DNA of 64,000 bases from Embleya scabrispora (GTDB taxonomy: Bacteria; Actinomycetota; Actinomycetes; Streptomycetales; Streptomycetaceae). Shown here piece after piece: positions 51,608 to 55,598 of this stretch; position 1 is the stretch's first letter, and each line of letters opens with the position of its first letter. The DNA lies in assembly GCF_002024165.1 (NCBI RefSeq), contig NZ_MWQN01000002.1:868001-932000 (forward strand). The letters run 5' to 3'. Position numbers and translations under genes: made by a program. The notes below the pieces were generated by a model that was given only the letters and a program-made list of their open reading frames with translations, had not been told where the DNA came from and searched no databases.

Positions 51608-52378
51608 TCAGTCGTCTCCGGGCCTTCGTGGCTTCGGCAGGAACAGCACCGAGTTGACGTAGCGGCGACTGAACGGGGCCAACGACCTGCGCAACAAACC
51701 GCGTTCGGCCACATGCGCGGTCCGGGACTGATGCCCGGACAGGTCGAACCCGGCCAGCGGCAGCCACTGCCGCCCCGGCAATACCCAACCCGCGTAGCCG
51801 AGTTCGGCGAGCAGGTCGAGCACGGGCGCCGGCGACCCGATGCGCGTCTCCACCTCGATGAACAGCGCCGGGTGATCGCGGCGCAGTACCTTCTCCGCCC
51901 CGCGCAGTACCGCCGATTCGCTGCCGTCCACGTCGATCTTGACGAAGACCACCTCGGTCAGCCCCAGATCGTCGAGCCGCACGCAAGGCACCTCCAGCGC
52001 CCGGTCGTGGATCTCCCGGCGGACCAGCGAGGACACGCCCCGATCGCCCCGATCGCCCGGCGGCAGCCACAACGCCACGGTCTCCGCGGCCCGATCGCCC
52101 GCGGCGGCGGCCACCACCCGCACGTTGGCGGGGGCGCCCTCGGCGAGCAGCCGGGCCAGGTGCGGCACCGGTTCGACGGTCACCACCCGGTCCGCGCGCC
52201 GCGCCAGCCGCCGCGACCACGGGCCGTACCAGCCGCCCACGTCCACGGCCGTGCCGCCGGCCGGGACGAAGTCGGCGAGCCGGCGCAACTCCGGTTCGAA
52301 GCGCGGATACAGCACGTCGACGGCGGTGGTGACCAGCTTCGGCGGCACCCGGGGACCGAGCCGGGCGGCGAGCGTCAC
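51608..52378 (-). CDS. FkbM-family methyltransferase
   Basis: 256 residues from GTG 52378. SAM-binding core: 'GGTAVDVGGWYGPWSRRLA' (motif I), 'RVVTVEPVPHLARLLAEG' (acidic motif II), 'FVKIDVDGSESAVLRGA', the last being the FkbM signature. Family members O-methylate sugars or polyketides; within this envelope cluster a glycan or lipid sugar is the likely target. The GTG overlaps the Trm112 stop (GTGA), indicating coupled translation. The same frame is also open upstream through the permease gene to 53482, so a fused product is formally possible. Confidence 0.85.
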   Translation of the reverse strand: MTLAARLGPRVPPKLVTTAVDVLYPRFEPELRRLADFVPAGGTAVDVGGWYGPWSRRLARRADRVVTVEPVPHLARLLAEGAPANVRVVAAAAGDRAAETVALWLPPGDRGDRGVSSLVRREIHDRALEVPCVRLDDLGLTEVVFVKIDVDGSESAVLRGAEKVLRRDHPALFIEVETRIGSPAPVLDLLAELGYAGWVLPGRQWLPLAGFDLSGHQSRTAHVAERGLLRRSLAPFSRRYVNSVLFLPKPRRPGDD

Positions 52379-52584
52379 GGCGCGCTCCGGCGAGTGATCC
52401 GCGCGTGCTCGTCGTCGGAGACCGGGACGCCGGAGGACGGCAGCAACTGCGGGATGCCCTCCAGGATCGGATAGCGCCGGCGCAACCTCGGGTTGTACAG
52501 CGCGTCCTCGAGGATCAGCAGGGTCAACGGCCCCTTGTCCAACGGGCAGGCCAGGATCCGCAGCAGCGGACTGTCGGGTTCCAT
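52375..52584 (-). CDS. Trm112-family small protein
   Basis: 69 residues. 'SPLLRILACPLDKGPLTLL' followed by 'YNPRLRRRYPILEGIPQLLP' matches the Trm112/YcaR pattern. In most members two Cys pairs bind zinc; here only 'CPLDKG' remains, so zinc is probably not bound. Trm112 proteins stabilise partner methyltransferases, and this one is followed by FkbM with a 4-bp overlap. Start ATG 52584 is preceded by GAAGAGGAG at 7 nt, a strong site that lies inside the 3' part of the permease frame. It is read in a different frame from both neighbours. Confidence 0.82.
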   Translation of the reverse strand: MEPDSPLLRILACPLDKGPLTLLILEDALYNPRLRRRYPILEGIPQLLPSSGVPVSDDEHARITRRSAP

Positions 52585-53482
52585 CGGGCGACTCCTCTTC
52601 CGGGACGGGCACTCGGTCGTGCCGGGGCAGCACGAGCAGGACGGCGCCGACGAGCACCGCGCCGGCCACGCGCAGGGCCAGTCGTAGCGGATCGTGCGGC
52701 GGCGCCTCGGCGAAGGCGACACTTCCGAGCACGGCGGTGAACAGCGCGGACACCGTGGTGCACACCGGCACGATCAACGACGCCCGACACCGTTGCAACG
52801 CGGTCTGGGACGACACGAGGCCGGCCACGCCGGTGCCGACGAGCAGGTACGGGTAGGGCGAGCGGAGCAGTTCCGACACCGGACCGCCGGGGTCGTGTGC
52901 ACCCACCCGGCCCGAGACGCCCTTGATCGCCAGCGAACTCACCCCGTACAGCAGGCCCAACGCCACGCCGTACTCGACGCCGGTGGCGGGCGGGCGACCC
53001 GGATCCCGGCCTCGGCGCCCCGCCGCCGCGTACAGCCACGCCGACCCGACCAGGGCCGGCAGGCACACGGCCAGGAGCCGGCCGACCGGGGCGTGGTCGC
53101 CGACGGTGTCCGAGGAGCGGAGCGAGCCGACCACCATCGCCAGTGCGACGAGGACGGCGAGCACCCCCGCGCGCTCCCGGGCGGAGGGCCGTTCACCCAG
53201 CACCACCGAGGACAATCCGAGCAGCAGCACCAGGCCGGCGACCAGGATGCCCTGCGCGGCGGCGAGCGGCAGGGCCCGGTAGACGGCGAGTTGGGCGGCG
53301 AATCCGGCGCCGAGGGCGAGCGCGCCGACCAGCCACGACGGACTGCGCAGGAGCAGCCCGATCGTGTGCAGCGGACGGCCGACGGTGAGCGCGGGCAGCC
53401 CGGTCAACGCCCGCTTCTCCAGCACGAATCCGCCGCTGTAGAGCACGTTGGCGAGCAGCGCCGCGGCCACGCCCCACCACAC
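52574..53482 (-). CDS. EamA/DMT-like permease without a stop codon before FkbM
   Basis: About 300 residues of membrane protein from GTG 53482, 2 bp after the preceding methyltransferase stop. Some nine to ten helices of the drug/metabolite transporter type ('WWGVAAALLANVLYSGGFVL', 'AAQGILVAGLVLLLGLSSVV', 'VAGAVLVGAVLLVLP'). It may flip or export a lipid-linked sugar in this cluster. After 'RHDRVPVPEEESPDG' the domain ends, but the frame has no stop: it continues under trm112 in another frame and joins FkbM, ending at 51608 (625 codons in all). I end the feature at CGA 52574-52576, where a TGA-to-CGA change would explain a lost stop; that is a guess. Confidence 0.7.
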
Positions 53483-53484
53483 GG

Positions 53485-54204
53485 CTACCGCCGCCGCGCG
53501 TGCACGAGCAGGATCGAGGCGAGCGAGGGGGCGGCGCAGGCGATCCGGTCCAGCGGGCGCAGCGGGCGGGGCACCCCGTGGAAGGGCGCGCCGCCGACCC
53601 GGACCACCTCGAAGCCGGCCGCGACCAGGAACTCCCGGAGCGCCCGGGCGGTGTACAGCCGCAGGTGGCCCACCACCTCGGTGCCCGGGCGGCCGTGGAT
53701 GCCGCGCAAACTGACCTCGGAGAAGACCGGCTGGACACCCGCGAGCAGCAGCGCCCGGTTGTACCAGGCGGCCAGATTCGGGGTGGACACCATCAGGTGG
53801 CCGCGCGGTTTCAGCACCCGGCGCAACTCGTCGAGTGCGACGTCGGGGTCGACCAGGTGCTCCAACACCTCGGCGAACACCACCGCGTCCACCGCGCCGT
53901 CCAGCAACGGCAGCCCGCCGTCGGTGAGTTCGCCGCGCACCACGTGGCCCATGCGCGTCGCGGCCCGGCGCAGCGCGTCCTGGGACCAGTCGAGGCCGAC
54001 CAGCGTATGGCGGGCCAACAAAGGCCCGGCGATCGCCGCCGCCGAGCCGTCGCCGCAGCCGATGTCCACGATCAGCGCCGGTTCGGGGCCGAGCGCGCGG
54101 GCCAGCATGGCGGCCTGCCGGCGGCCGCGTTCCGGGCCCGAGGCGACCGGGACGGCGGGGTTCTCGTAGAACGCGCGCAGGCCGGCGGGGCGGGTGGCGG
54201 TCAT
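53485..54204 (-). CDS. Class I SAM-dependent methyltransferase
   Basis: 239 residues. Motif I 'LIVDIGCGDGSAAAIAG', motif II 'TLVGLDWSQDALRRAA', motif III region 'VDAVVFAEVLEHLVDPDVAL', then 'LKPRGHLMVSTPNLAAWYNR'. Similar proteins methylate lipid quinones or glycolipid sugars. The C-terminal part ('TARALREFLVAAGFEVVRVG') is typical of the Methyltransf_11/23 group. Its ATG overlaps the stop of the acyltransferase gene (ATGA), and the permease starts 2 bp after its own stop, so it is embedded in the envelope operon. Substrate unknown. Confidence 0.9.
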   Translation of the reverse strand: MTATRPAGLRAFYENPAVPVASGPERGRRQAAMLARALGPEPALIVDIGCGDGSAAAIAGPLLARHTLVGLDWSQDALRRAATRMGHVVRGELTDGGLPLLDGAVDAVVFAEVLEHLVDPDVALDELRRVLKPRGHLMVSTPNLAAWYNRALLLAGVQPVFSEVSLRGIHGRPGTEVVGHLRLYTARALREFLVAAGFEVVRVGGAPFHGVPRPLRPLDRIACAAPSLASILLVHARRR

Positions 54205-55598
54205 TTCGAACCACCGCCGGGCGACGGCGGGTTCGGTGCGGCGGCGACGGCGGCCAGGTATGCCTCCAGGAGGCCGTACAACTGCCGGGCGGCCGCGTCG
54301 TCGAGCAGCGCTCGGGACCAGCGCAGGCCGACGTGCAGGCGGTCGGCGGTGCCGGTCGTGGTCAGGGTCAGGCCCCTGGGCATCCGGGTGGGTGCGGACA
54401 CCCACACCGCGCTCGCCCGGCCCGCGTCGCCGAAGTCCAGCGGGTAGGGGATGCGGCCGAGGTTGCTCAGCAGGGTGGTCGAGGTCCACGGCCCGACCGC
54501 ACGGCCCAGGCCCCGCGTGCACGCGGCCCGGACGCCGACGGGAAGTACCGGCGCGGTCAGCAGGGCGGCGCCGCGACCGAGCGGGGGTCGGCGTGCGGCG
54601 CGGAGTTCGCGGGTGCGGCGGGCGGTGCGGCGCAGCAGGTCGGCGATGCGGTCGGGACTCGGGTACCACGTGTGCTTGCCGTCGTGTTCCGGGGCGTACT
54701 CGCGCGGGCCGAAGCAGACGTCGACCAGGCGGGTGCCGTTGCCGATCGGCATGTCGGGGCCGCGCGGGCGGTCGTCCACGGGCATGGTGATCCGGATCGG
54801 CCGGGGCTGTGCGTCGTGCAGCCGGTTCCAATGCGCGATGGTCAGGCACGTGGCGACCAGGAGGCGGTCGTTGACGGTGTGGTCGGCGCCGGACGGGCGC
54901 GCGTGCAGCGGGAGTTCGCCGAGCAGGACGCCGTTGCCGAGGCGCCGGTTCGGGTCGGCCGAGGGAGCGGGTGCGACCCGGGCGGAGCGGGACAGCGGGC
55001 TTCCGGGGTCGAGGCCGGGTCCGCCGGTCGGCGCGCCGGCGGCGGCCCGATCCGTGGTGGGCGGCGCGGCGGGCGGGTCGTCGCCGGCGCCGGTGTAGAG
55101 TTCCGCCGCCGTTGCCAGCACGCGCAGGAAGGCGGGGCCGTCCAGGGCGGTGTGGTGGATCGTGCACAGCAGGACGCACCCGGCGGCCGTCGGCGAGGAG
55201 CGGATCACCTCGATCCGGATGGGCGGTGCCAGGGCCAGCGGCGGCGCCTCGGCCAGCGCCACCGCCCGGGCCCGGGCCGGCGCGTCGGGCCCGGGCGGCG
55301 GGAAGCGGATCGGCTCCACGTCCGGGGCGTCGGCGAGTTCCCACGCGTAGCGGCGCGCGTACCAGGGCGCGGGTGCCTCACGGACGAGTGCGCGGGCGTG
55401 CGTGCGCAGCGCGGCGCGGAACGCGGCACGCAGCCGGGCCGGATCCGGCTGCCCGGGCAGCCGGATCTCCATGTGCACCGAGATCGCTTCGCCCGGCCGT
55501 ACACACTGCCGGGACACCTCGTCGACGACCGGGAACGGGATCCGGGCCGGGGCCGGTCCGGCCGGGTGCTCGGGCCGAGCCGGGCGCACCGCGCTCAT
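54201..55598 (-). CDS. Condensation-type acyltransferase (PapA/wax-ester-synthase-like)
   Basis: 465 residues. The catalytic motif HHxxxDG is present in 'LCTIHHTALDGPAFLR' (about 140-150). The second half ends with the structural 'TLLSNLGRIPYPLDFGDAG' and 'TADRLHVGLRWSRALLDDA' elements of the condensation/acyltransferase superfamily. It stands alone, with no carrier or adenylation domain, so it is not an NRPS module; it should transfer an acyl chain to a hydroxyl or amine. Coupled by ATGA overlaps to the arabinofuranosyltransferase-like gene upstream and a methyltransferase downstream, it probably acylates the glycan or glycolipid made here. Confidence 0.83.
   Translation of the reverse strand: MSAVRPARPEHPAGPAPARIPFPVVDEVSRQCVRPGEAISVHMEIRLPGQPDPARLRAAFRAALRTHARALVREAPAPWYARRYAWELADAPDVEPIRFPPPGPDAPARARAVALAEAPPLALAPPIRIEVIRSSPTAAGCVLLCTIHHTALDGPAFLRVLATAAELYTGAGDDPPAAPPTTDRAAAGAPTGGPGLDPGSPLSRSARVAPAPSADPNRRLGNGVLLGELPLHARPSGADHTVNDRLLVATCLTIAHWNRLHDAQPRPIRITMPVDDRPRGPDMPIGNGTRLVDVCFGPREYAPEHDGKHTWYPSPDRIADLLRRTARRTRELRAARRPPLGRGAALLTAPVLPVGVRAACTRGLGRAVGPWTSTTLLSNLGRIPYPLDFGDAGRASAVWVSAPTRMPRGLTLTTTGTADRLHVGLRWSRALLDDAAARQLYGLLEAYLAAVAAAPNPPSPGGGSK

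Follow-up and report, generated by a model that had tools for sequence, protein, structure and literature searches.

The window analysed here, a stretch of 64,000 nucleotides from Embleya scabrispora (contig NZ_MWQN01000002.1, positions 868,001 to 932,000), contains a permease gene whose reading frame crosses the whole of an out-of-frame gene, trm112, and continues in frame into a third gene, which encodes an FkbM-family methyltransferase. On the minus strand of the window, this frame runs from GTG 53482-53480 to TGA 51610-51608 (624 sense codons plus the stop, no internal stop) and encodes, in order, a DMT/NIPA-like permease, a linker lying under trm112 and the methyltransferase. Comparison with related loci supports the change of a permease TGA stop to CGA as the most parsimonious origin of this arrangement. 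The best explanation, to which we give a probability of about three in four, is a near-neutral stop-loss accident of a GC-rich genome, in which the permease-FkbM fusion would be a tolerated by-product and free FkbM presumably the working form, because one Embleya species has a broken permease gene and yet a conserved FkbM gene.

Organization of the Locus

An earlier sequence-only reading of the window had described a permease frame without stop from GTG 53482 to 51608, running into FkbM, as well as a trm112 gene read in another frame and handing over to FkbM by a GTGA. Both descriptions are confirmed in the sequence. The elements concerned are the following.

52585..53482, minus strand: DMT/NIPA-like permease, about 299 codons forming the conserved portion of the open frame, with a GTG start that closely follows the TAG ending the upstream methyltransferase gene
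52592..52600, minus strand: putative Shine-Dalgarno-like motif GAAGAGGAG of trm112, 7 nucleotides before the ATG
52375..52584, minus strand: trm112, 69 amino acids (Pfam Trm112p), in a frame shifted one base downstream relative to that of the permease
52379..52584, minus strand: linker, the permease frame under trm112, rich in Ala, Pro, Arg and Gly and with no hydrophobic segment
52574..52576, minus strand: CGA codon of the permease frame, at the place where sister loci, in the locus comparison, have the permease stop TGA
52375..52378, minus strand: GTGA overlap of the FkbM start GTG (52378-52376) with the trm112 stop TGA (52377-52375)
51608..52378, minus strand: FkbM-family methyltransferase, 256 amino acids, assigned by profile matches, with its own start, in the permease frame
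53485..54204, minus strand: upstream class I methyltransferase, 239 amino acids, which adjoins the permease in relatives too

The FkbM start lies in the permease frame because of the four-base junction with trm112. The product of trm112 scores 46.2 bits against PF03966 (Trm112p; curated cut-off 22), and that of FkbM 73.4 bits against TIGR01444 (cut-off 37.7) and 53.5 bits against PF05050 (cut-off 22.7), all above threshold. The permease is 61-75% identical to its relatives. Its earlier label, "EamA-like," is roughly right, but the best matches are NCBIfam DMT_1 (25.1 bits, cut-off 50) and Pfam NIPA (16.4 bits, cut-off 26.2), both below the curated cut-offs. The translation of the linker is exemplified by the peptide QSAAADPGLPVGQGAVDPADPR.

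By itself, the length of the open frame is nothing unusual. In the window, at 73.5% GC, 26 stretches of 625 or more codons lack any stop, and the frame in question also continues without a stop further upstream, across the gene for the upstream methyltransferase, as far as a GTG at 54214; the whole stop-free stretch exceeds the 53482-51608 span and is partly meaningless. When random synonymous codons were drawn for the Trm112 protein of the window, with the codon usage of the window's genes, the permease frame under trm112 stayed open in 47% of the draws, and among 111 control loci whose permease does not use that frame, 85 have it open. Since this frame is so often open by default, the run-through needs no selection, and the length of the open frame was rejected as evidence of coding. 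What counts is that the permease stop is missing in three species.

Termination of the Permease in Related Genomes

Four Embleya genomes were examined, and the locus was found in three: the window's species, G002 and E. hyalina NBRC 13850 (locus L064). The fourth (G003), a fragmented assembly of 1650 contigs, gave no match to the permease or to FkbM. At all three loci, the frame is stop-free from the permease end through trm112 into FkbM.

For comparison, 190 distinct loci were taken from the matches listed in two family-wide surveys and in a third survey, of named genomes. Among these, the permease ends by an ATGA/GTGA-type overlap with trm112 in 117, before trm112 in 40, and inside trm112 in the Embleya frame in 29. 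It runs through into FkbM in three, all of them Embleya, and at the remaining locus, from Streptomyces (L092; G261:C10:97800-102800), it has no stop and is fused in frame to Trm112. In the two surveys, the listed matches with an open frame of about 600 amino acids or more included no independent Streptomyces case that runs through to FkbM. The check proposed in the sequence-only reading, a search for the permease stop in relatives, thus finds it in most of them, at the overlap, before trm112 or inside it. The observation named there as refuting, a permease that ends in another frame in relatives, holds in part: that of most relatives does end, often in another frame, through the ATGA overlap. 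At two loci (L107 and L118) the aligned trm112 start is neither ATG nor GTG, and the true start is probably elsewhere.

Outside Embleya, no permease that enters trm112 in the Embleya frame passes through without a stop (28 stops among 28 loci of the first set), the stop lying mostly at +8 or +11. A stop is present in the frame under trm112 at 28 of the 31 loci that use this frame, Embleya included, versus 26 of the 111 that do not (p about 1e-11). When the loci were clustered at 85% nucleotide identity, a step that removes relatedness only partly, the corresponding numbers are 16 of 18 and 11 of 25 (p 0.004). Such regular stops, enriched over the loci that do not use the frame, indicate that stopping is normally favoured. 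Relatives therefore appear to keep a stop in this frame by selection, Embleya being the exception.

Origin of the Stop Loss

In a tree built from FkbM and the permease, the Embleya clade (support 1.0) joins locus L244 (0.68) inside a clade of 23 loci (0.996), half of whose non-Embleya members end the permease within trm112, at +8 or +11. Three loci, L244, L106 and L156, have TGA exactly where Embleya has CGA (52576-52574); L106 reads ACC TGA versus ACC CGA at all three Embleya loci. The change from TGA to CGA is synonymous for Pro3 of Trm112. Both marks of a stop-loss overlap are found here, namely a stop at or near the permease end in relatives that is lost in Embleya, and a downstream gene, trm112, read in another frame over the overlap. 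A TGA-to-CGA change at this codon, already suggested in the sequence-only reading, is supported as the most parsimonious origin, because TGA stands at this place in the sister locus and in those loci of the neighbouring clade whose permease stops at +8.

Linker Constraint, and Permease Decay in E. hyalina

Each third codon position of trm112 is at the same time a first position in the linker. Third-position divergence of the window from G002 is 39% in trm112, compared with 38% in the methyltransferase, 32% in the permease and 34% in FkbM. Extra constraint on the linker is thus not visible in trm112 third positions, a comparison of low power with three species. Between the same two genomes, 36 of 69 residues are identical in the linker versus 57 of 69 in Trm112. 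Purifying selection on both frames of the overlap, as in dual coding, was not detected, with the same low power.

In E. hyalina, the permease gene carries a 2-nucleotide deletion near codon 196, and its first frame is 318 codons long, ending within trm112. Changes in this lineage, polarised with G002, number 30 nonsynonymous and 11 synonymous in the permease, including 12 Leu-to-Pro, with an excess of T to C. The respective numbers are 7 and 9 for FkbM, 6 and 9 for the methyltransferase and 1 and 2 for trm112 (p 0.009 for the permease against the other genes). By these signs the permease of E. hyalina is a pseudogene, trm112 and FkbM being still constrained. This species is a natural test: it keeps FkbM without an intact permease, so that the fusion is not kept wherever the genus keeps FkbM and is dispensable for keeping it. 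The sequence-only reading had suggested that FkbM could be made in both forms. A purposeful double production of this kind is not supported, as no constraint is seen on the linker frame and E. hyalina retains Trm112 and FkbM after the loss of its permease.

For the window's own lineage, 10 nonsynonymous and 15 synonymous changes were counted in the permease, its frame is intact and the ratio of nonsynonymous to synonymous rates (dN/dS) to G002 is 0.41. To judge from these values, it looks still constrained, as for a working gene. It departs at 14 of 142 conserved columns, compared with a mean of about 1 elsewhere.

Predicted Fusion Protein

Because ribosomes on the permease meet no other stop before 51608, a fusion of about 65 kDa is predicted to be made wherever the permease is translated. 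A fold model of the fusion, for which the permease rows of the alignments were shortened, has a mean predicted local distance difference test score (pLDDT) of 66 and a predicted template modelling score (pTM) of 0.47, with nine long helices predicted. The permease end is poorly modelled, the linker has low confidence (pLDDT about 28-49) and the FkbM domain is mostly well formed (pLDDT 75-96). The loops on the C-terminal side carry 13 Lys and Arg residues versus 6 on the other side. This bias places the permease C-terminus in the cytosol, where the FkbM domain could fold.

Interpretation

The following scenario can be proposed. Before the Embleya species compared here diverged, the permease stop TGA at codons 3-4 of trm112 would have become CGA. 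As trm112 is stop-free in this frame and its GTGA/ATGA junction puts FkbM in frame, the permease would then be read to the FkbM stop. Ribosomes starting at the permease would make the permease-linker-FkbM protein of about 65 kDa, with its FkbM domain cytosolic, and translation beginning at the trm112 Shine-Dalgarno site, with the coupled start at GTGA, would still supply Trm112 and free FkbM. Embleya no longer has the handover from permease to trm112, by ATGA/GTGA or early stop, that is typical of most relatives. This stop-loss overlap is unusual, and there is little evidence that it has brought a new function. Some points weigh against the near-neutral accident. Linker constraint could be tested only with low power, on the three Embleya loci in the collections, of which two could use the fusion. 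The E. hyalina frameshift rests on one assembly, although the substitution pattern is independent of it. Finally, the support for L244 as the direct sister is modest.

An alternative, to which we attach a low probability, is that the permease is dying throughout Embleya, the lost stop being one more sign of decay. The E. hyalina pseudogene and the many departures of the window's permease from conserved columns would fit this. The intact frame, the low share of nonsynonymous changes and the dN/dS of the window's lineage argue against it. It is somewhat less likely still that the fusion is functional and tethers FkbM to the membrane beside the permease, free FkbM being a second form. The lack of any stop between the two genes, the constraint on the permease in the window's species, the charge bias that places the C-terminus in the cytosol and the well-modelled FkbM domain are all in its favour. 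They are opposed by a linker without visible constraint, by FkbM kept in E. hyalina without an intact permease and by the stop kept in relatives. Slightly more doubtful again is the stronger proposal that, in the window's species and G002, one stretch of mRNA yields tethered and free FkbM, with Trm112 encoded out of frame in the linker and the tethered form having its own role. As for an error of sequencing or assembly that removed the permease stop, which the sequence-only reading had named as refuting, nothing was found in its favour, and this candidate was rejected as extremely improbable because the open frame and the CGA codon are common to three separately assembled species.

Comparison With Known Systems

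Loss of a stop codon is a known source of same-strand overlaps (Sabath et al., 2008, PMC2542354; Fonseca et al., 2013, PMC3887535). As GC content rises, out-of-frame stops become rarer, and selection is believed to act against long overlaps (PMC3887535, PMC2542354). Unlike the known cases, the Embleya extension crosses a whole downstream gene and joins the next one in frame, the third gene becoming the tail of the first. The unusual feature is precisely that the run-on crosses an entire out-of-frame gene and ends in the gene after it. The locus offers a natural stop-loss case with a traceable origin, and shows how, in a GC-rich genome, a single substitution, synonymous for the overlapped gene, can yield a multi-domain fusion.

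The trm112-FkbM GTGA kept in Embleya resembles the junctions of termination-reinitiation at ATGA/GTGA (PMC10666635, PMC12548453), by which most relatives also join permease and trm112. In contrast, the Embleya permease has no stop at trm112, so that termination coupling presumably cannot work there. The Streptomyces locus L092 likewise lacks a permease stop in the same operon and yields a run-on protein. There, however, the permease enters trm112 in trm112's own frame, and no frame is read twice. Nothing specific was found in the literature on Trm112 beside FkbM.

Neighbouring Genes

Just upstream of the class I methyltransferase gene, a 465-residue protein (54201-55598, minus strand) has no Pfam or NCBIfam match (E up to 0.1). 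Further upstream lies a gene for a large AftD-like arabinofuranosyltransferase (PF11847; 55595-60220, minus strand), whose end overlaps the next gene. Its presence suggests that the neighbourhood is concerned with cell-envelope glycans.
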